NCBI RefSeq assembly: GCF_002007565.1
Contig: NZ_CP015625.1
Coordinates: forward strand, 2,741,501 to 2,805,500
Direction of reading: 5' to 3'
DNA: 64,000 nucleotides
Source: Ditibartonella choladocola
Lineage (GTDB): Bacteria; Pseudomonadota; Alphaproteobacteria; Rhizobiales; Rhizobiaceae
In this document: positions 1,721-61,686 of the stretch, piece by piece
Layout: the number at the start of each line of letters is the position of its first letter
Numbering within the stretch: the first letter of the stretch is position 1
Position numbers and translations under genes: made by a program
Notes under the pieces: generated by a model
What the model was told of the DNA's origin: nothing
Seen by the model: the letters and a program-made list of their open reading frames with translations, nothing else
Database searches by the model: none

Positions 1721-2359
1721 TTATTGGGCTGATGGTACAATGAAATTCTCTTCCCCCGACGGATCTTTCAGGCAATTTTCTTGCAACATTTTTTCAATAT
1801 CCTGAGGAACGGACTTTATTTTTGCAGTATTTGTTTCCCTGAAAGTATCAAATGCCGAAGATGCAACAGTATCGCCCGTTTCAATGAGTGCCTTATCCAT
1901 TAAAGCATCGTTGTTTTCCATGCGCCCTTCCACGACCTCGGAAGAAAGATCGAGTGCACGTGCAGTTTCCATCATATCGCGACGTTCACTCAATGTTTTT
2001 GCCATGCGCGTGGCTACGGGACCAGGTTCTGCCTTGCCATTGATACTCAGCCCCTTTTCCAGTTGATAAATTTCCTTGAGAATATGGTCGTATTGCTGGA
2101 CAATATTCATATAGACCCATTGTCTTGCCTTACGGGAAGGCTTTTTACAGATCTTCAGCATATTGTTTGCCGGTTCTTCAATCATCGGCATAAACACTTT
2201 GTCCGATTCTTTGAGCATACTATAGGCAAAAACAAAAACCGTAACATCGGCACTTTTTTTGTTATTCTGGCTATCGTGGCCAATAACGTCGGAAACAGAT
2301 TGAGAAAAAACTGTGCTTGTCGAAAGCAGCAAGGCTGATAATACCAATAAAAAACGCAT
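1721..2359 (-). CDS. Hypothetical exported protein
   Basis: I do not recognise this protein. From the ATG at 2359, preceded by a GGGG-containing ribosome site, it has 212 residues and begins MRFLLVLSALLLSTSTVFSQ, a typical Sec signal peptide with probable cleavage after Ser-Gln or just before it. The mature part is polar and mostly helical, with three Cys-poor segments and a C-terminal LQENCLKDP motif. A longer reading from 2428 would put 23 extra residues before the signal peptide, so I reject it. The predicted location is periplasmic. It lies between a small membrane protein and priA, all on the minus strand, without obvious functional link. Confidence 0.6.
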   Translation of the reverse strand: MRFLLVLSALLLSTSTVFSQSVSDVIGHDSQNNKKSADVTVFVFAYSMLKESDKVFMPMIEEPANNMLKICKKPSRKARQWVYMNIVQQYDHILKEIYQLEKGLSINGKAEPGPVATRMAKTLSERRDMMETARALDLSSEVVEGRMENNDALMDKALIETGDTVASSAFDTFRETNTAKIKSVPQDIEKMLQENCLKDPSGEENFIVPSAQ

Positions 2360-2467
2360 TATCCCGATCCCCTGGATACGATTTGGAACGCCCAAGCTCG
2401 ACATCTTTTCAAATTCACGCGTTTTCAAACTTACGCGGCTTTCCCTTTTGATGCCGAAGCACCAACA

Positions 2468-4660
2468 TTAAATGAAACTTTGTGGATCAATGTCAACCTG
2501 CACACGTATTGTACCACGGATTTTCGGCCCCTTGGCAATCATTGCACGAATGAAAGATTGCATATCGGCACGGCGGCTTCCATGAACAAGCAGCCGGAAG
2601 CGATATCTTCCGCGTACCAATGCCAATGGTGCTTCGGCAGGCCCCAGAACCGATATTTCATCTGCCGATGGCGCAGCCTGACGCAAACCGCGTGCATGTG
2701 CTTCAGCGGCACTCCGGTTTTCCGATGAAACGATAAGTGCAGCCAGACGCCCGAAAGGCGGAAGGTTATGCCGTGCCCTTTCGTCAATCTCTCTTTTGTA
2801 GAAAGCTTCACTATCGCCCGAAATAATAGCCTGCATAACGGGGTGATCGGGCTGATAGGTTTGGATCAATCCCTGACTTTTCAATCCGGTACGGCCTGCG
2901 CGACCGGTGACTTGCGACAAAAGTTGAAATGTTCTTTCGGCTGCACGCGGATCGCCATTGGCAAGTCCGAGATCGGCATCAACCACGCCAACCAGTGAAA
3001 TTCCGGGAAAATGGTGACCTTTGGCAACCAATTGCGTTCCGATGATAATATCGACTTCACCTTTTGCAATTGTTTCAAGCTCCAGCCGCAGTCTTTTGAC
3101 ACCCCCTATCAAATCGGTCGACAACACCAGAATGCGTGCCTCAGGAAAAAGCTTCAACGTTTCCTCGGCAATTCTTTCCACCCCCGGACCACAAGCAACC
3201 AGATGATCGAGTGTGCCGCATTCGGGACAAGCTTCCGGTATAGGTTCATGATAGCCGCAATGGTGGCACATAAGTTGTCCGCGAAAGCGATGTTCCACCA
3301 ACCAGCTTGAACAATTCGGGCATTGGAAACGGTGACCGCAGACACGACATAATGTCAAAGGAGCATAACCACGTCGATTAAGAAAAATAAGGGATTGTTC
3401 TTTGCGCTCGATCACCTCGCGCATAGCCAATTCGAGCGGCGGTGACAAAAACCGGCCAGACGGAGGTGCATTTTTGCGCATATCGATAGCGCGCAAATCC
3501 GGCATTGCCGCCTGTTTGAAACGGGATGGAAGATGAACAGCGTGATAGCGTCCCTGAAGGGCATTGACCTTGCTTTCCACCGACGGTGTAGCGGAAGATA
3601 AAATAACCGGAAATTTTCCGAAAGAACCGCGCGCAACTGCCATATCACGCGCATTATAAAAGACACGATCTTCCTGTTTGTAAGCAGTGTCATGTTCTTC
3701 ATCGACAATAATCAGTCCAAGATTTTCAAAAGGAAGAAACAGAGCAGAACGGGCACCGGCAATAACCCGCACCCGACCTTCGATTACCTGTCGCCAGACA
3801 TGCTCGCGTTGTTTCGGTGTGAGATCGGAATGCCATTCTGCCGGTGGTGCACCGAAGCGGCTTTCAAACCTGTCAAGAAATTGCTGGGTTAACGCTATTT
3901 CCGGCAAAAGAATAAGAACCTGTTTGCCTTTTTTAAGCGTTTCTGCAACCGCTTCAAAATAGACTTCCGTTTTTCCCGAACCTGTCACACCATCCAGCAA
4001 TAAGACTTTGAAACAATCCGCCTCGACGGCATTGATAAGTTCATCAGCGGCCAATTTCTGTGCTGTTTCCAATGACGGACGGGCATAATCGGGATCGGGA
4101 CAAGCGACCACAGGGGGTGGCGGCATTTCTATTTCTTCAAACAGACCGGAATTTTTCAACCCTTCGACAACACTTGTCGACGTGCCGGCAGCATGGGCAA
4201 GCCCCGATTTGGTCCAGGCCATGCCATTTTGTGCAAGTTCCAGAACGCGTTTGCGTGCAGCCGTCATTTTTTCGACTTTGCCACCACAATAACGCAAGCC
4301 CGGAATTGCCGGTTCGGGATCAAATGCCGCCGGAACCCGTAAAACCATACGAGCCACCATCCCCGGAGGGGACAAAGTATAATCCGAAACAAAATGGATA
4401 AAGCGCATCATATCCGCAGAAAGTGGCGGACAATCGAACAATCGGGAAATCGGCCGCAATTTTTTTGCCGCCACTTTGTTACTGCTGTTTGCTTCATCGG
4501 TCACGAGACCGGCCACTTCCCTTGGCCCCAAAGGTACACGAACAATCGATCCGGCAGTTACATTCATATCGTCGGGCACAGAATAGCTATAAGCTGTTTC
4601 TGCCGGCATCGGTACCAACACTGAAACGGTTTTTGGTGTCTTTGATTCGTTTTTTATCAT
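2468..4660 (-). CDS. priA: Primosomal protein N' (replication restart helicase PriA)
   Basis: PriA is the 3'-5' superfamily 2 helicase that recognises stalled forks and reloads the replisome. The N-terminal DNA-binding domain begins VSVLVPMPAETAYSYSVP. The helicase core has Walker A GVTGSGKTE, Walker B VDEEHD and the GRAGR motif (QVTGRAGRTG). The zinc-binding insert has the expected cysteine pairs: CRVCGHRFQCPNC, CHHCG and CPECG. About 730 residues, normal for PriA. Several in-frame starts exist; 4660 is chosen because the homologous part begins just after it and a GAG-containing ribosome site precedes it, while 4672 and 4732 are possible. The transaldolase gene is divergent. Confidence 0.95.
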   Translation of the reverse strand: MIKNESKTPKTVSVLVPMPAETAYSYSVPDDMNVTAGSIVRVPLGPREVAGLVTDEANSSNKVAAKKLRPISRLFDCPPLSADMMRFIHFVSDYTLSPPGMVARMVLRVPAAFDPEPAIPGLRYCGGKVEKMTAARKRVLELAQNGMAWTKSGLAHAAGTSTSVVEGLKNSGLFEEIEMPPPPVVACPDPDYARPSLETAQKLAADELINAVEADCFKVLLLDGVTGSGKTEVYFEAVAETLKKGKQVLILLPEIALTQQFLDRFESRFGAPPAEWHSDLTPKQREHVWRQVIEGRVRVIAGARSALFLPFENLGLIIVDEEHDTAYKQEDRVFYNARDMAVARGSFGKFPVILSSATPSVESKVNALQGRYHAVHLPSRFKQAAMPDLRAIDMRKNAPPSGRFLSPPLELAMREVIERKEQSLIFLNRRGYAPLTLCRVCGHRFQCPNCSSWLVEHRFRGQLMCHHCGYHEPIPEACPECGTLDHLVACGPGVERIAEETLKLFPEARILVLSTDLIGGVKRLRLELETIAKGEVDIIIGTQLVAKGHHFPGISLVGVVDADLGLANGDPRAAERTFQLLSQVTGRAGRTGLKSQGLIQTYQPDHPVMQAIISGDSEAFYKREIDERARHNLPPFGRLAALIVSSENRSAAEAHARGLRQAAPSADEISVLGPAEAPLALVRGRYRFRLLVHGSRRADMQSFIRAMIAKGPKIRGTIRVQVDIDPQSFI

Positions 4661-13350: not shown

Positions 13351-13516
13351 ACCACAATCGCTCACGGGCGTACCAATTGGCTGAATAGCAACACTTTTTT
13401 CGCCCGTGGCGGTTAAACGCACTTGAGTATCGCGCGCATTGTATCGCCTGTGGCGCTTGCACTTGCATATCCCCTTCATTGTATCGCTTGCGCACATAAT
13501 ATCATTTACACAAATT

Positions 13517-13588
13517 GTGTTCTCTTGCGCGCATTGTATTCTCTTTCGCGCATTGTATTCTCTGGCATATTGTATTCTCTGGCACATT
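13517..13588. repeat. Short tandem repeat, 17-19 base unit, four copies
   Basis: Four adjoining copies of a unit that reads GTATTCTCTTTCGCGCATT in its 19-base form and GTATTCTCTGGCATATT in its 17-base form. Degenerate relatives starting GTATCGC extend left to about 13441. Copies differ by substitutions and two-base deletions. Confidence 0.75.
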
Positions 13589-13892
13589 GGCAGCAGATCT
13601 GTATTGCAACATAACCTTCTATTAACGGACAAAACCGGTCATAAATGCGCAAAATTCATAGCAGAATGCAGAGCCTGCGAAATAGTCACGCTTTTAATTT
13701 CAAAAAGATATGAAGTGCATGGGCGGCTGAAAATTCGCTTATTGATTTTCATGAAACCATCATCCGGAAATGATCCCCGTGAACGTGTCGATCCGGTTCA
13801 ATTTTTAAAAAAATCGAAAGTTATAAAATGCACAAAAAGCCGGTAACGCCAACACGATTTCATGCGCGCAATTCAATCTTCGACATTGCCGG

Positions 13893-13986
13893 TTATATCC
13901 GAAATCGAAGACCATGTTTTAAATTGAAGATTATATCTGGAATTTACGCTTATGTCTGAAATTGACGGTGTTGTCTGAAATTGAAC
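13893..13986. repeat. Degenerate tandem repeat, unit about 19 bases
   Basis: Four or five diverged copies of a unit resembling TTATGTCTGAAATTGACGG. The last two copies agree over GTCTGAAATTGA. Unrelated in sequence to the array at 13517-13588 in the same spacer. Confidence 0.6.
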
Positions 13987-34271: not shown

Positions 34272-34446
34272 TAGAATATGCAATTTGCCCGATCTTCCGG
34301 ATTGAAAAGTTGTGGGGGGAGAAACGCCTTGTTGAAGTCGATAAAACAGCTTTTTTTAAAAAACCATTTCGGAATGGCGGCTTTAGAAGCTGCCATTATT
34401 TTTGGCAATATCATTCGCTAAAATATTGCCATTCAATAAAATAAAA

Positions 34447-34498
34447 CCGGAAAATAATGCCGCAAAATAATACCGGAATATAATGCCGCACCGGCAAA
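34447..34498. repeat. Imperfect 26-base tandem duplication
   Basis: Two adjacent units of 26 bases share CCGGA, then ATAATGCCGCA with one difference between them. The flanks add further CCGGC pairs. Small, degenerate and without coding sense. Confidence 0.45.
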
Positions 34499-45506: not shown

Positions 45507-46054
45507 TAACTTTCTCCACCTTCAACATCTGTTTCGTCTGCAACAAGTCCTGCTGCAACCCGATCAATGCCGATGAACCCCTTTTCAATATTGATTTCGG
45601 GGACTGCCGCTTTCGAGAACGGAATGAATTTCAGCCCCTCGCCCTCAACCTTCAATTCAAGAATATCACCACCGCCAAAATCGAAAAAAGCATTAACCTT
45701 GCCGATTATTCGGCCATTCCCGTCCCTGACATCCAATCCGATAAGATCGGTCTGATAAAACTCGTCTTCTTCCAGATTATCCGGTAATTGTTGCCGTTCG
45801 ATATAAAGAGCTGTTCCATTGAGTGCCTCGGCACTATTGCGATCATCAACACCGGAAAAATGCACAATAATGGCGTGACCGGCTTTTCTTGAATTTTCAA
45901 TTTTGAAGGCTCTGCCATTTTCGTCGAATAGCCTGTCATAAGACAAAATTCCCAAGGGGTCGGCGGTAAATGTGATAAGTTTTACGTCCCCCTTGATACC
46001 ATGAGCGGCCGCAATGGTAGCAAGTTGAACCAAATTATTTCCATTTTTTTCCAT
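45506..46054 (-). CDS. rimM: Ribosome maturation factor RimM
   Basis: Assists maturation of the 30S head by binding S19. The 182-residue protein starts [26 protein letters not shown] and has the PRC-barrel half with [16 protein letters not shown] and [12 protein letters not shown]. An in-frame TTG at 46072 could add six residues, but ATG at 46054 is preferred. The upstream sequence consists of three 19-base repeats, each carrying GGAACATATG or a variant; the ribosome site and start codon are part of the last copy. The usual rpsP/ffh upstream partners are absent. Confidence 0.93.
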
Positions 46055-46108
46055 ATGTTCCGACTTTTCCAATATGTTCCGGTTTTTCCCATATGTTCCG
46101 GTTTTGCC
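46052..46108. repeat. Three 19-base tandem repeats over the rimM start
   Basis: Three contiguous 19-base units (46052-46070, 46071-46089, 46090-46108) differ by only a few bases; the second reads AATATGTTCCGGTTTTTCC. On the minus strand each ends in GGAACATATG or GGAACATATT. The first copy includes the chosen rimM start codon. Confidence 0.85.
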
Positions 46109-56943: not shown

Positions 56944-57432
56944 ATAACCGGATACGTTCACCGGCATTTCTTCATCGGCTTGCCGGTAAATTCACTATTT
57001 TCACGTGCATCTTCACGAGCGACAGAGCAAAGGCCTGTTGTCCAACTGCTTTAAAAACGAACTATTGTTTGAACAATGCAAGCTTGACTTTAAGAATTGT
57101 TGAATTGATGTGGCTGTTAGCAAAAGACTGAAAAAACAGTTTGATTGCCTGGTGTTTCAGCCTTGGTTCACCCCGCCAAATGATATTGATAACTATTTTC
57201 TTGTTCCGGAAGCTAATCGTCACCGTCTTGAAGAAATATCAAACGGTTTTATTTAAGCAATAAAATGTTTTGGTTCGCCTGTCTTTTTTTCGTTCTTTTA
57301 TCATATGGTATTTTTTAAAGGCGCGAAAAAAGGCTTGAGAAAGCAAAATAAATTTATGGCGATGGGCTGAAACTTGCCGTCACATATCTACCGACAATCA
57401 AAATCAGGTAAAAGCGGGTTGAAAGGTCAAAA
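56944..57432. other. Spacer between the two DMT genes
   Basis: About 490 bases. A weak inverted repeat ACCGGC/GCCGGT near 56962-56990 follows the first transporter. A short open frame with protein-like codons lies at 57110-57256 and is listed separately. The promoter of the second transporter should be in the right part. Confidence 0.4.
57110..57256 (+). pseudogene. Possible small ORF or gene remnant
   Basis: A 48-codon frame beginning with GTG and reading SKRLKKQFDCLVFQPWF, then PPNDIDNYFLVPEANRHRL and EEISNGFI. Its composition and codon choice look like real protein, and the same frame is open for another 30 codons upstream apart from one TGA. There is no good ribosome site and I do not recognise the family, so it may be the tail of a decayed gene or chance. 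Confidence 0.3.
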
Positions 57433-58302
57433 ATGTTCTACGGGGTTTTCCTTTCATTTGCTTCTTACGCCGCCTATGCCGTGAGCGATGCGTGTGTCAA
57501 ATTTATTGATGGCGCATTGCCACCTTATGAAACGGCATTTTTCGGAGCTTTAATCAGCATCATTGTCATTCCATTTTTGAAAAACCGTGACAATAAATGG
57601 ATAGACATTATCCGCTCGCAGAACTGGCCAATGTGGTTTTTACGGACAGTTTCCGGTGCTTTCGGAGTTATCGGCAGCGTTACTGCTTTTACACATCTCT
57701 CAATGGCAGAAGCCTTCACATTGATATTCTTGCAGCCCCTCTTTGTCAGCATTCTTTCTATGGTATTTTTAAAAGAAGCCATCGGATGGCGGCGTTGGTC
57801 GGCCATCATCATCGGCTTTATCGGTGTGCTTGTCGTTTTGCGACCGGGTTTCCGTGAACTTAATATCGGACATGTTGGGGCTGTTTTTGCCGGTTTGAGC
57901 GGCGCTATTTCTATCATTATTGTACGTCATATGGGCGGTCGCGAAAAACGCATTACACTTTATTCAAGTGGCATTATCGGTTCGATTATTATTTGCGGTT
58001 TGTTGAGTTTACCCGGCTATGTCGAACCGCATGGTTTTGAATGGCTCTATCTTTCCGGTTACGGGTTACTTGCAGCTCTTGGTGCACTTTTTCTTATGGC
58101 GGCTGCGCGCCGCGTTCCCGCAATTGCTATTGCCACCCCGCAATATAGCCAGATGATCTGGGCGATATTGTTCGGTTATTTCATTTTCAACGATCATCTT
58201 GACCTCCCGATGGCCGTTGGCATTATCCTTATCATGGCCTCAAGCCTTTTAACTTTTATGCGCGAAAAGCATCACCGGAACCAAACCACACCACAGAAAT
58301 AA
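57433..58302 (+). CDS. DMT-superfamily transporter (EamA)
   Basis: A 289-residue inner-membrane protein with ten predicted helices in two EamA halves, the first with FASYAAYAVSDACVKFIDG and MAEAFTLIFLQPLFVSILSMVFLKE, the second with AARRVPAIAIATPQYSQMIWAILFGYFIFND. It is the S-adenosylmethionine/RhaT-like branch of EamA carriers often annotated only as DMT transporters; substrate unknown. An AGG lies at suitable distance before the ATG. It is distinct in sequence from the YddG-like gene upstream, so the two are not a recent duplication. Confidence 0.87.
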   Translation: MFYGVFLSFASYAAYAVSDACVKFIDGALPPYETAFFGALISIIVIPFLKNRDNKWIDIIRSQNWPMWFLRTVSGAFGVIGSVTAFTHLSMAEAFTLIFLQPLFVSILSMVFLKEAIGWRRWSAIIIGFIGVLVVLRPGFRELNIGHVGAVFAGLSGAISIIIVRHMGGREKRITLYSSGIIGSIIICGLLSLPGYVEPHGFEWLYLSGYGLLAALGALFLMAAARRVPAIAIATPQYSQMIWAILFGYFIFNDHLDLPMAVGIILIMASSLLTFMREKHHRNQTTPQK

Positions 58303-58408
58303 TGAAATTCCCCCTCCCTCGCGTTTTAAGAATTCTTCGCTTGAAAAGAACAGCTCAAGTTGAAAATGCCGAAAATCGAAAGAACGCGCGATATTAAAAT
58401 AACTGCCT

Positions 58409-58438
58409 AACCGGCGGAATTGCCGGTTTGTGTTTTTG
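58409..58438 (+). terminator. Rho-independent terminator after the second DMT gene
   Basis: AACCGGC/GCCGGTT stem (58409-58415 and 58422-58428) with a six-base loop and a TGTGTTTTT tail, about 105 bases after the stop codon. Confidence 0.8.
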
Positions 58439-58646
58439 AAGAAAATTTCTGGCAGTTTTTGGCATTATCGCCAGCGAGAGATCGGAGTGCCAATCTCATA
58501 AAAGGAAAGATTTTCCCGCAAAGTCCGAGCGGAAAAACCTCGCGAGCTTTTAGCGTGCGATAATTCAAAACCACTGGATACGGGAATGAAGCAGATTTTT
58601 GCCCACATCGCAAAATAAGCGTTTCGATCAAGGAAACGAAATAACA
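58439..58646. other. Spacer before the tandem repeat array
   Basis: No gene is seen. It contains GCGAGCTTTTAGCG near 58544-58557, which is repeated at the 3' end of the DUF1127 gene, and an eight-base inverted repeat, AAGCGTTT (58617-58624) with AAACGCTT (58646-58653), at the edge of the repeat array. Confidence 0.45.
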
Positions 58647-59064
58647 AACGCTTGGCTTACGGGCGGAGGCAGCAGACGTTGCAAAAGAAAACCTCAAGGG
58701 AAGGAAATAAAGGGAAGGAAATAAAAACGCGTGGCTCGCGGGAGGGGGCTGCAGACGTTGCAAAGAGGTAAGCCCCAAGGGAAGGAAATAAAAACGCTTG
58801 GCTTACGGGAGGGGGCAGCAGACGTTACAAAAGGAAAGCCTCAAGGAAACGAAATAAAAACGCTTGCCTCGCGAGAGGCGGCAGCAGACGTTGAAAAAGA
58901 AAAGCCTCAAGAGGAGGAAATAAAAGGAATAAAATAAAAACGCTTGGCTCGCGGGAGGGGGCAGCAGACGTTGCAAAAAGGTAAGCCCAAGGGAAGGAAA
59001 TAAAAACGCCTGCTGCGGGAGGGGGCAGCAGACGTTACAAAAGGAAAGCCTCAAGGGAAGGAAA
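58647..59064. repeat. Six-copy tandem repeat, unit about 66 bases
   Basis: Six contiguous copies start at 58647, 58726, 58793, 58859, 58939 and 59005, with lengths of 79, 67, 66, 80, 66 and about 60 bases. Each opens with AACGCTTGGCT or a variant, has GGCAGCAGACGTT in the middle and ends GGAAGGAAATAAA. The longer copies have an extra AGGGAAGGAAATA-like or AAAGGAATAAAAT insert near the end. The third and fourth units form one 22-codon-periodic plus-strand frame (REGAADVTKGKPQGNEIK, then REAAADVEKEKPQEEEIK), but other copies break it. The array lies between a transporter terminator and the 3' end of a DUF1127 gene. Confidence 0.93.
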
Positions 59065-59075
59065 GGCTTTCCACC

Positions 59076-59100
59076 CAGAGCCTGAGGGGAAAAGGCTCTG
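59076..59100 (-). terminator. Hairpin after the DUF1127 gene
   Basis: CAGAGCC (59076-59082) pairs with GGCTCTG (59094-59100) around an 11-base loop, eight bases after the stop. The sequence that follows on the minus strand is GGTGGAAAG, so the T run is lacking; a T run lies within the loop. Confidence 0.55.
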
Positions 59101-59107
59101 CGAGCTT

Positions 59108-59251
59108 TTAGCGCGCTGTACGGCGAGCGATTGCCGCGATCTCTGAACGGGTAATACCGAGATCATTCAATTCATGAGTAGAAAGGCGGCTCAATTCATT
59201 ATAAGTTGTACGATAACGGCGCCATTTATTAAAACTACGAAGAAGATTCAT
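59108..59251 (-). CDS. DUF1127 small basic protein
   Basis: A 47-residue protein of the DUF1127 (YjiS-like) family: MNLLRSFNKWRRYRTTYNE, then ELSRLSTHELNDLGITRSEI, ending AAIARRTAR. In Rhizobiales such small Arg-rich proteins affect phosphate and carbon metabolism and RNA turnover, and some bind RNA; the role here is unknown. The start at 59251 follows AGGTGAG at good spacing; the longer frame to 59332 lacks homology. Its 3' flank borders the six-copy repeat, and a CtrA-like box lies about 340 bases upstream. Confidence 0.88.
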   Translation of the reverse strand: MNLLRSFNKWRRYRTTYNELSRLSTHELNDLGITRSEIAAIARRTAR

Positions 59252-60003
59252 GACACTCACCTGATTGAATATATTATGTTGGAATTTGTTGAGGCGTATA
59301 TAGACTTGACCCCCCGCATTGAGGAGTGACAAGATTGCATAGCTGCTGTGCAGCGATTAAGCATTTTGTATATTTTTTAGTCACAATTCATTAAGAATTG
59401 GCGATATTTCGCCTCATTTCGTAACATTTGGCCTTATTCAGGAAATAAAACGATATTTTTCGCCATAATTTTTGTGAAAAATCGCGTGGAAATTGTTTTG
59501 AAATGATGCAAATTTCAAATTTGAAAGAAAGAAATTCTATTTACCTTTAAAAACAACTTGCAGGATAAGGTTATTTTCTAACACAACTCTTAAATCATGG
59601 TTAATTTTTCGTTTAGCGCAACCCGCTTCACGGAGATGAAATATATTGTTGGCGGGGGCAAATAATTTTTTGGCAAGCGCTATTGTTTATTCCCGCTATT
59701 CTTTGCTGTCGCGATACTGTCTCAGCCAGAAAAATTCTTATCTGTTTCAATCAATTGCGGCATGTCTATTGCAATTATCCCTTAAGGATTTCCAATGCCA
59801 TACGCTTCATAGACACCACGCTATTCGAGAAAAGTGTTCAATCTCGTAAAAATCTCCGCTAGATCTATCGAAACAAAGCTCGGCCGGTTTTAAAAATATT
59901 TTAGCCCGAACAATCACTATTCTTCTCCGGCGCTTCCATTTTGAAGCTTGCTCAACGTGTCTTCCAATCAATTCCCGCAAGTATCGGAAACTGTAGTAGT
60001 ATT
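59252..60003. other. AT-rich upstream region of the DUF1127 gene
   Basis: About 750 bases without a supported gene, between divergent transcription of the DUF1127 gene and the purH terminator. A GGCGATATTTCGCC hairpin lies near 59400. A CtrA-like motif is at 59590-59604. A small RNA gene could hide here, but I see no signature of a known family. Confidence 0.45.
59590..59604 (-). promoter_or_regulatory. CtrA-like motif upstream of the DUF1127 gene
   Basis: Plus-strand TTAAATCATGGTTAA, or TTAACCATGATTTAA on the gene's strand, is TTAA-N7-TTAA. It lacks the extra C of the full consensus and is about 340 bases upstream, in AT-rich DNA where such matches arise by chance, so it is weaker than the ftsE and ftsK sites. 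Confidence 0.25.
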
Positions 60004-60037
60004 AAAAAAAGCTGCCGGAATTGATCCAGCAGCTTTT
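60004..60037 (-). terminator. Rho-independent terminator after purH
   Basis: AAAAGCTGC (60007-60015) pairs with GCAGCTTTT (60029-60037), with an inner GG/CC extension, and is followed on the minus strand by a run of seven T. It lies about 33 bases after the purH stop. Confidence 0.9.
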
Positions 60038-60069
60038 CCTTGTATGAAATCTTTGTTCTTTCCATCCAT

Positions 60070-61686
60070 TCAGTGACGGAAATGGCGCATACCGGTAAAG
60101 ACCATTGCGATATTGTTTTCGTCGGCTGCTGCAATCACTTCATCATCGCGGATAGAACCGCCAGGCTGGATGACCGCTGTCGCGCCCGCTTCCACCGCTG
60201 ACAACAACCCATCGGCAAACGGGAAGAAAGCGTCGGATGCGACAACCGAACCTTTGGTCAAAGGCTCGCTAATACCGGCGATTTTAGCTGCATCCAGCGC
60301 TTTATGAGCGGCTATACGGGCTGAGTCCACGCGGCTCATCTGACCGGCACCGATACCGACTGTTGCATTATCCTTCACATAGACAATGGCATTCGATTTC
60401 ACGTGTTTGGCAACCTGAAATGCAAATTTGAGATCACGCATTTCCGCTTCGGTCGGTTGGCGTTTTGTAACCACTTTCAAATCGAGATCGTCAATCACAC
60501 CATTATCACGCGTCTGAACCAACATGCCGCCCGATACGGTTCTCATTGTCAAACCGGGAGCGCGCGGGTCAGGCAGACCACCGGTAATCAGAAGACGCAG
60601 ATTTTTCTTCCTGGCAATGATTTCGCGAGCCGTTTCTGTAGCGTCCGGTGCGATAATAACTTCGGTAAAAATTTTGGTAATTTCGGTGGCGCAATCTTCG
60701 TCAAGCGGACGGTTCAGCGCAATAATACCACCGAAAGCCGAAACAGAATCGCAAGCCAAAGCTTTAAGATAGGCTTCTTTCAACGTTTTGCCTTTGGCAA
60801 CCCCGCAAGGATTTGCATGTTTGATAATGGCGACCGCTGCAGTCTTTTCCGGATCGAATTCGGCAACGGTTTCAAAGGCTGCGTCCGTATCATTGATATT
60901 ATTATAGGAAAGCTGTTTTCCCTGTAAAACCTGTGCGGTTGATACACCGAAACGCTTTTCACCGGTCAGATAAAAACCCGCTTTTTGATGCGGATTTTCG
61001 CCATAGCGCATAATCGTTTCAAGTTCGCCGCCAATTGCGCGCCATTTCGGCGTATCAATTTCAAGTGCCTCGGCAAACCAGTTCGATATTGCTGCATCAT
61101 ATGAAGCTGTACGGGCAAAAGCACGGGCAGCCAGCATGCGACGGAAGGAAAGCTTCAGACTGCCTTCATTTTTATCAAGTTCGGCCAATACCAGATTATA
61201 ATCATCCGCATCTGTCACAACTGTAACATAAGCGTGGTTCTTTGCAGCGGCACGAATCATTGCCGGGCCGCCAATGTCGATATTTTCGACAATGGTTTCA
61301 TTATCGGCACCGGAAAGTCTTGTTTCCTCGAACGGATAAAGATTGACAGCAACAAGATCAATGCCGACAATTCCGTGTTTTTTCATTGCGGCCTGATGTT
61401 CCGGATCATCACGGATTGCAAGTATGCCTCCATGAATTGCCGGATGCAGAGTTTTGACCCGACCATCCATAATTTCCGGAAAACCGGTAACTTCGGAGAC
61501 ATCTTTGACAGGCAAACCGGCTTCAGCCAGAGCCTTTGCAGTACCGCCTGTCGAAATAAGCTCGACGCCATATTCATGAAGGCGCGTTGCAAAGTCGATA
61601 AGGCCGGTTTTATCCGATACGGAAATAAGAGCCCGACGCACCCGAAGCAAATCGGGCGCGGGAATGTGTTTCGATGTCACAGTCAT
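60070..61686 (-). CDS. purH: Bifunctional AICAR transformylase/IMP cyclohydrolase
   Basis: Catalyses the last two steps of purine synthesis, formylating AICAR and closing the ring to IMP. The 538-residue protein has the N-terminal MGS-like cyclohydrolase domain ([42 protein letters not shown]) and the C-terminal transformylase domain with the catalytic Lys-His in [14 protein letters not shown] and [11 protein letters not shown]. Full length. A strong terminator follows, and the heparinase-like gene lies 155 bases upstream on the same strand, the typical rhizobial order. Confidence 0.97.

Follow-up and report, generated by a model that had tools for sequence, protein, structure and literature searches.

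A probable DUF1127-linked ar14-type small RNA locus with presumably decaying tandem copies of its 3' flank in Bartonella

The tandem array at 58645-59064 of the window (the whole 64-kb stretch of DNA analysed here) is, with a probability of about 0.78, the repeatedly duplicated 3' flank of a locus that consists of a DUF1127 gene and an ar14-type small RNA in the so-called CIN1 arrangement, units 2-6 being decaying copies. This reading is carried by homology, by the conserved structure of unit 1, by differences in copy number along the phylogenetic tree and by a shared promoter-region element.

Organisation of the locus

The six tandem units proposed in the initial annotation were recovered by repeat analysis and by Tandem Repeats Finder. 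They are best read on the minus strand, start at positions 58646, 58725, 58792, 58858, 58938 and 59002 (spacings of 79, 67, 66, 80 and 64) and share considerably more than the half of their bases first noted, the pairwise identity in the aligned columns of the six units being 0.80-0.92. The length classes of 66/67 and 79/80 bases had been seen correctly, while a third class of 64 bases had been missed. The top row of Tandem Repeats Finder (score 698, 58628-59064, period 213, 2.1 copies) implies that a block of three units occurs twice. The identities fit this block loosely: the pairs 1/4 (0.92), 2/5 (0.89) and 3/6 (0.84) follow it, and the pairs 1/5 (0.89), 4/6 (0.89) and 1/3 (0.84) cut across it. 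The features of the region are the following, the z values referring to the minus-strand fold:

59108..59251, minus strand: DUF1127 protein gene, 47 aa, ATG start (PF06568, E 3.6e-17, 62.3 bits)
58998..59110, minus strand: unit 1, intact three-hairpin ar14-type small RNA (Rfam match, fold, orthologues, covariation)
58937..59000, minus strand: unit 2, truncated copy without hairpin A and the left arm of B, right arm of C mismatched (alignment; z +0.6)
58857..58936, minus strand: unit 3, truncated copy, longer by about 14 nt (alignment; z -2.2, equalled by 4/200 shuffles; weak terminator-like site)
58791..58856, minus strand: unit 4, truncated copy, nearest to unit 1 (0.92) (alignment; z 0.0)
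58724..58790, minus strand: unit 5, truncated copy, nearest to units 1 and 2 (0.89 each) (alignment; z -1.7, equalled by 10/200 shuffles)
58645..58723, minus strand: unit 6, truncated copy, longer by about 14 nt, nearest to unit 4 (0.89) (alignment; z +0.05)
58471..58552, minus strand: additional, decayed copy of the longer unit (28.5 bits and E 2e-8 with model R1)
58409..58428, plus strand: probable terminator of the plus-strand EamA gene, at the far edge of the region (terminator-like site with an 8-bp stem)

The DUF1127 gene, whose presence beside the array was borne out by the Pfam match, reads into the array on the same strand; of the three hits that the genome gives, no other lies above the Pfam cut-off. 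The coordinates first given, 58647-59064, cover the array but leave out the conserved stretch 59065-59110, the promoter-region element at 59336-59352 and the decayed copy at 58471-58552. Adjoining this decayed copy, positions 58542-58558 resemble positions 59100-59116 at the 3' end of the DUF1127 gene (a 17-nt repeat, 94%).

Based on the neighbouring EamA gene, the nearest named loci are those of Bartonella apis, Bartonella apihabitans, Bartonella sp. M0177 and Bartonella metagenome assemblies, with an EamA protein identity of 93-96% for the five closest of the 19 loci. B. apis and B. apihabitans are inhabitants of the honey-bee gut. Other short tandem repeats, with periods of 13-26 bases, are present in the window at 13514-13589, 13893-13985, 34438-34490 and 46045-46105.

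Unit 1 as an ar14-type RNA

The Rfam search of 57300-60100, run at E up to 5, matched the ar14 family (RF02344) at 59001-59110 of the minus strand over the full length of the model (positions 1-123), with 55.1 bits and E 1.2e-8. The gathering score of the family is 58.8 bits, which unit 1 does not reach, and no Rfam match in the 64-kb window passes the gathering thresholds. The match spans the array unit nearest to the gene and a further 46 bases through the DUF1127 stop codon (59108-59110), which overlaps the start of the modelled RNA. On the minus strand, unit 1 and its flank fold into three hairpins (z -6.7, 0/200 shuffles as good), and the full-length, three-hairpin form that characterises ar14 is supported for all three helices on 13 sequences:

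59074-59102, minus strand: hairpin A (fold of unit 1)
59043-59072, minus strand: hairpin B (fold of unit 1)
59005..59036, minus strand: hairpin C, 12-bp stem, loop CCCCUCCC and then a U run, probably the intrinsic terminator of unit 1 (fold and terminator scan)

Hairpin C has the longest stem among the four terminator-like sites in 58300-59400 (shuffle mean 1.6 sites), and its energy is -20.3 kcal/mol, whereas the corresponding stretches of units 2-6 range from -5.1 to -12.6. The CCUCCUCCC loop, 'ultraconserved' in ar14, is absent from hairpins A and B of unit 1 and is present with one mismatch in C. Unit 1 is thus close to ar14 by structure and lacks two defining features of the family, the score and CCUCCUCCC in all three loops. 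The shorter motif CCUCC, which unit 1 retains in C alone, is found in hairpin C of 11 of the 13 loci and in loops A and B of none (0/13). Loop B, UCCUUCCCUU, is identical in all 13 loci (L084-L096), though its stem covaries, and may be a changed target-binding seed. CcsR1 (RF02791) was matched neither in 57300-60100 at E up to 5 nor in the 13 loci at E up to 0.1.

Pairs of a DUF1127 gene and a CcsR-like RNA are called the 'CIN1 locus' in the available part of PMC10253847, whose definition is used here and not that of the 2015 paper cited there for the name. A short DUF1127 gene directly followed by a same-strand aSD-loop RNA is what the locus holds, and unit 1 is, as far as its sequence tells, a divergent relative of ar14 that scores under the threshold and stands in an arrangement of the CIN1 type. 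The initial annotation, which knew of no named element matching the repeat, had therefore overlooked the resemblance to RF02344 and to the DUF1127-CcsR arrangement. Its idea of a structured RNA array proved right in that a structured RNA exists, but this is one intact minus-strand unit with five truncated, mostly unstructured copies. As the locus lies just under the curated Rfam score, it is likely to escape annotation in these Bartonella genomes.

Conservation in Bartonella and the family

Model R1, built from 10 DUF1127-linked Bartonella units, was matched in 14 of the 71 genomes of the genus sample (the window's own included), and a DUF1127 gene precedes the unit in all 14. The 13 loci that were fetched, again including our own, all hold EamA, DUF1127 and one ar14-like unit directly after the stop codon, with Rfam ar14 scores between 46.7 and 57.7 bits, below the gathering score in 13/13. 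The fourteenth genome (G212) has DUF1127 and then one R1 match on the same strand with 41.3 bits (Rfam 28.6 bits).

The analysis of the 13-row alignment, which was fitted to model R1, showed that 98.8% of the 416 pair cells pair and that 14 of the 32 pairs change on both sides, a covariation that separates largely two clades and hence represents few independent events. On four of five measures 0/500 shuffles were as high, and the slid controls gave at most 4 two-sided pairs. The fifth measure, further pair types, gave 22 against a shuffle mean of 27.9, and 500/500 shuffles were at least as high.

The ar14 model RF02344 was matched in 146 of the 151 genomes of the family at E 0.01 (137 above the cut-off; controls 0/14) and in 40 of the 71 genomes of the genus at E 0.1 (14 above the cut-off; controls 1/14, below the cut-off). 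Beyond Bartonella, R1 also matches ar14 sites elsewhere in the family. The six top-scoring of these matches (L025, L029, L027, L032:1924, L010:1070 and L022) are each located directly after a same-strand DUF1127 gene, and 22 of the 30 family loci, one per genome (L005-L034), hold a DUF1127 gene.

Weak ar14 matches of 34.8-50.3 bits were recorded in 16 other Bartonella loci (L068-L083), with no DUF1127 gene found in the locus of about 3.1 kb. In genome G206, an extra weak R1 match of 24.8 bits (G206:C1:113664-113790) lies away from the two ar14-type loci of that genome.

Promoter region and second ar14 gene

The region upstream of the DUF1127 gene holds two features:

59336..59352, minus strand: 17-base promoter-region element TGCACAGCAGCTATGCA (pattern TGCAYNNCAGCTATGCA), candidate LsrB/VtlR site (genome pattern search and alignment)
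59298..59303, minus strand: possible -10 element CTATAT (read from the sequence)

The hexamer CTATAT also occurs in the NfeR1 promoter (PMC10746234, available part); here no clear -35 element was seen near it, and the consensus promoter scan did not list it. All 13 syntenic loci, when aligned, carry the 17-base element. A genome search with the pattern TGCAYNNCAGCTATGCA, in which up to one mismatch was allowed, gave two sites, both perfect, at 59336-59352 and at G000:C1:234583-234599 (L113, L112), and the latter lies upstream of a second, stand-alone ar14 gene at C1:234637 (L057:1501-1618). This second gene reaches 87.2 bits, above the cut-off, has three CUCCUCCC-type loops and shows a weak CcsR1 match (28.0 bits, cut-off 65.3). 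Among the 71 genomes of the genus, 30 perfect sites were found in 16: two in each of 14 genomes, the same 14 that have an R1 match, and one each in G091 and G191. A comparison of positions placed 30/30 sites upstream of a same-strand ar14-type match, and the reversed pattern gave 0 sites in the 71 genomes.

The reverse complement of the element contains the VtlR box GCAT-N3-TG-N3-T published in PMC7486931 (available part); the box alone is common, with 11 occurrences in the 64-kb window. According to the accessible sections of the respective papers, LsrB binds and activates the NfeR1 promoter (PMC10746234), and VtlR positively regulates three DUF1127 genes in Brucella (PMC12595884). The distribution of the sites suggests that the two ar14-type loci may form a tiny two-site regulon of LsrB/VtlR, as a candidate. 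The genome also contains trxB, a LysR gene and an ar15 RNA (RF02345, 54.2 bits, above the cut-off) in a row (L121:1141-1259 and 1793-3770). We take ar15 to be the AbcR family. The order trxB-LysR-ar15 is the arrangement described for VtlR/LsrB in Agrobacterium (PMC7486931), and smrC15 is AbcR2 (PMC7143759), both in the portions of text available. Among the 25 NCBIfam families listed for the LysR gene, no match attains the cut-off of its family; by its neighbourhood the gene is a candidate VtlR/LsrB.

Proposed expression and action

From these data and from the related systems, we infer how the locus is transcribed, processed and regulated, what it targets and in which order its duplications took place. 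The DUF1127 gene and the three-hairpin RNA would most likely share one promoter and one transcript, with the LysR-type regulator LsrB/VtlR as the probable activator. The RNA would end at hairpin C as an intrinsic terminator, and RNase E would probably release it from the messenger's 3' end, as happens to CcsR1-4 in Rhodobacter, where the CcaF1-CcsR1-4 precursor is cleaved by this enzyme (PMC10253847, available part). The C-rich loops of the RNA would pair with purine-rich ribosome-binding sites, by which translation would be blocked. The aSD loops of NfeR1 silence ntrB (PMC10746234, available part), and by analogy the product of unit 1 is most likely a small RNA that blocks ribosome-binding sites. 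The target pattern AAGGGAAGG followed by 2-11 bases and ATG was found at two genome sites versus one in the reversed control, which is uninformative.

The copies would go back to an ancestral event in which the 3' end of DUF1127 was duplicated together with the RNA, and then to tandem copying of a truncated piece within the lineage, including the duplication of a three-unit block.

Truncated copies

In units 2-6 the sequence starts near loop B, which leaves them without hairpin A and without the left arm of B. The right arm of hairpin C in these units is like GCGAGCCAAGCG, compared with GCAGCAGGCG in unit 1, and the left arm is nearly unchanged, so that the terminator stem is mismatched. Differences from unit 1 amount to 1/60 in the left arm of C, 4/40 in the loop and 15/60 in the right arm, and the C-rich loop is exact in units 1, 2, 4 and 5. 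The earlier claim that each unit can fold is mostly not upheld: the z value of unit 1 with its flank is -6.7, whereas those of the other five lie between +0.6 and -2.2, three of the five being no better than shuffles. For the plus strand, on which three stretches were tested, z was -2.9 for unit 1 with its flank, -0.7 for unit 2 and -0.1 for unit 4. Units 2-6 gave no ar14-level match and no stable three-hairpin fold; the best Rfam match, which spans units 2 and 3, has 14.2 bits (E 3). Because units 2-6 follow a strong terminator, that of unit 1, and retain little of the structure, they are probably little transcribed and decaying.

By eye, GCGAGC, the changed right-arm sequence in units 2 and 5 (58937-59000 and 58724-58790) could pair with GCUCGC at about 59100-59105, by the DUF1127 stop codon.

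Copy number, which the initial annotation had proposed to compare between strains, does differ among the 14 related genomes, from one to six units, a series that may illustrate how tandem small-RNA clusters grow and decay. Copies beyond unit 1 are present in eight of the 13 aligned loci, and the remaining five, as well as G212, show one unit. The eight multi-copy loci form one clade (97/99; 96% of 200 bootstrap trees) in the 13-row tree, which rests on one gene and has mostly weak inner forks. With five short copies and one remnant, the window has the highest copy number among the loci compared. The downstream content is smallest in L084, where only remnants are found (best 10.9 bits), and L090 has two full-length but weakened downstream copies (50.8 and 54.5 bits). 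The best extra copy in the related genomes reaches 54.5 bits versus about 140 bits for unit 1, and the longer remnants start, by eye, with a stretch like the DUF1127 3' end. The description of the repeat as amplifying is therefore valid locally, as copy number differs between related species at one locus, and not elsewhere.

Six of the other seven multi-copy loci have, by pattern search, a right arm containing GCCAAGCG downstream of their first unit, and this arm is therefore probably older than the split of the multi-copy loci. A loose pattern for hairpin-C right arms was discarded, as it missed known copies and hit the single-unit locus L091. Most right-arm differences are common to the copies and hence old, the right arm GCGAGCCAAGCG being shared by the downstream copies. 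The better-kept left arm and loop of hairpin C could hint at some constraint and not pure decay. Taken as a whole, the extra copies point to lineage-specific duplication and decay, with a tail that is probably decaying.

Alternative explanations

All six units could be working small RNAs like CcsR1-4 of Rhodobacter, forming a dosage-amplified cluster cut from a long 3' tail. DUF1127-linked tandem CcsR RNAs are established in Rhodobacter (available parts of PMC10253847 and PMC8625941), and the exact C-rich loops of four units as well as a copy number above that of all other loci compared agree with such a cluster. However, the strong terminator of unit 1 precedes the other units, which are without hairpin A and half of B and of which three fold at shuffle level; the extra copies in relatives remain far under unit 1; and the terminator of the Rhodobacter cluster is located at the operon end (PMC10253847, available part). 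We consider this explanation unlikely. It is rather improbable, too, that the truncated copies form a read-through-transcribed, unstructured multi-seed RNA, whose exposed CCUUCCC and CCCCUCCC would titrate or silence many purine-rich ribosome-binding sites; if true, the tail would be a hairpin-less anti-Shine-Dalgarno RNA expanding by tandem duplication in bee-associated Bartonella.

A tail that acts on the stability or termination of the DUF1127 messenger, as a 3'-end buffer and not as trans-acting RNAs, would fit its position directly downstream of the gene and its pyrimidine-rich, mostly unpaired sequence. Such a role is very unlikely for a tail that sits past an apparently complete terminator and is absent in six of the 13 other genomes keeping the DUF1127 gene.

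The variation of copy number between species would also be expected of a mobile or self-amplifying intergenic element, as the initial annotation had suggested. The search of the host genome with the 66-base unit gave seven matches, namely the six array units and one 15-base chance match, so that the unit occurs at one locus only. The blastn search at E 1e-5 found no match in 72,556 plasmid and 50,697 phage records, from which records near to the own genome were possibly left out. No transposase was found among the six neighbouring genes tested, and the multi-copy genomes form one clade with one locus. A mobile element is thus highly improbable.

The least credible reading is a plus-strand repeat-protein gene, intact or decayed: although an open plus frame with a GTG start (58731-58937, 68 aa) does span the middle copies, as had been noted, and the GGGAAGG stretches look like Shine-Dalgarno sites, a look that follows from the anti-Shine-Dalgarno character of the opposite strand, the frame is no longer than in shuffles, unit lengths of 64, 67, 79 and 80 break it, six of the 13 other genomes have no extra units and the remaining ones have different units, and the conserved signal is a minus-strand RNA structure. 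In the 550 nt that follow DUF1127, no plus frame stays free of stops for more than 70 codons, against a mean of 72.7 in mononucleotide shuffles (148/300 at least as long), and in the same test of the eight multi-copy loci only L087 was unusually long (101 codons, 6/300 shuffles).

Comparison with known systems

The preferred reading, a DUF1127 and ar14-type RNA locus with a duplicated 3' flank, brings the locus close to RF02344 ar14/NfeR1 (SmelC397, Smr14C2) and the SmelA075 group, with which it shares three hairpins, C-rich loops and variable stems, more than one copy per genome and a candidate LsrB-type promoter element (PMC3927594; available parts of PMC10746234 and PMC7143759). It differs from them in loops A and B without CCUCCUCCC, in the CCCCUCCC of hairpin C and in a score below the cut-off, and also in its direct linkage to DUF1127 and the truncated copies that follow. 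Likewise, CcsR1-4 with ccaF1 of Rhodobacter sphaeroides consist of a short DUF1127 gene and then same-strand aSD-loop RNAs, but there four RNAs precede one terminator, whereas here one intact three-hairpin unit is followed by the terminator (PMC10253847, available part). RS0680a, a related RNA, has two stem loops (PMC3927594).

The VtlR/LsrB-activated DUF1127 genes and AbcR RNAs of Agrobacterium, Brucella and Sinorhizobium are similar in the box before DUF1127 and in the trxB-LysR-ar15 adjacency, both known here from sequence. The literature search found no paper joining Bartonella, small RNA and DUF1127, and a broader one gave none whose title concerns this locus, an earlier description of Bartonella cuckoo RNAs (Reinkensmeier and Giegerich 2015) being possible. 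The leader attenuator of a Sinorhizobium DUF1127 gene, described in the available part of PMC12218461, has no bearing on the 3' flank studied here. The Brt RNAs of Bartonella henselae are likewise Bartonella small RNAs 'in tandem with DNA-binding proteins', although their partner, by the description in the accessible part of PMC5387305, is a DNA-binding protein and not DUF1127.
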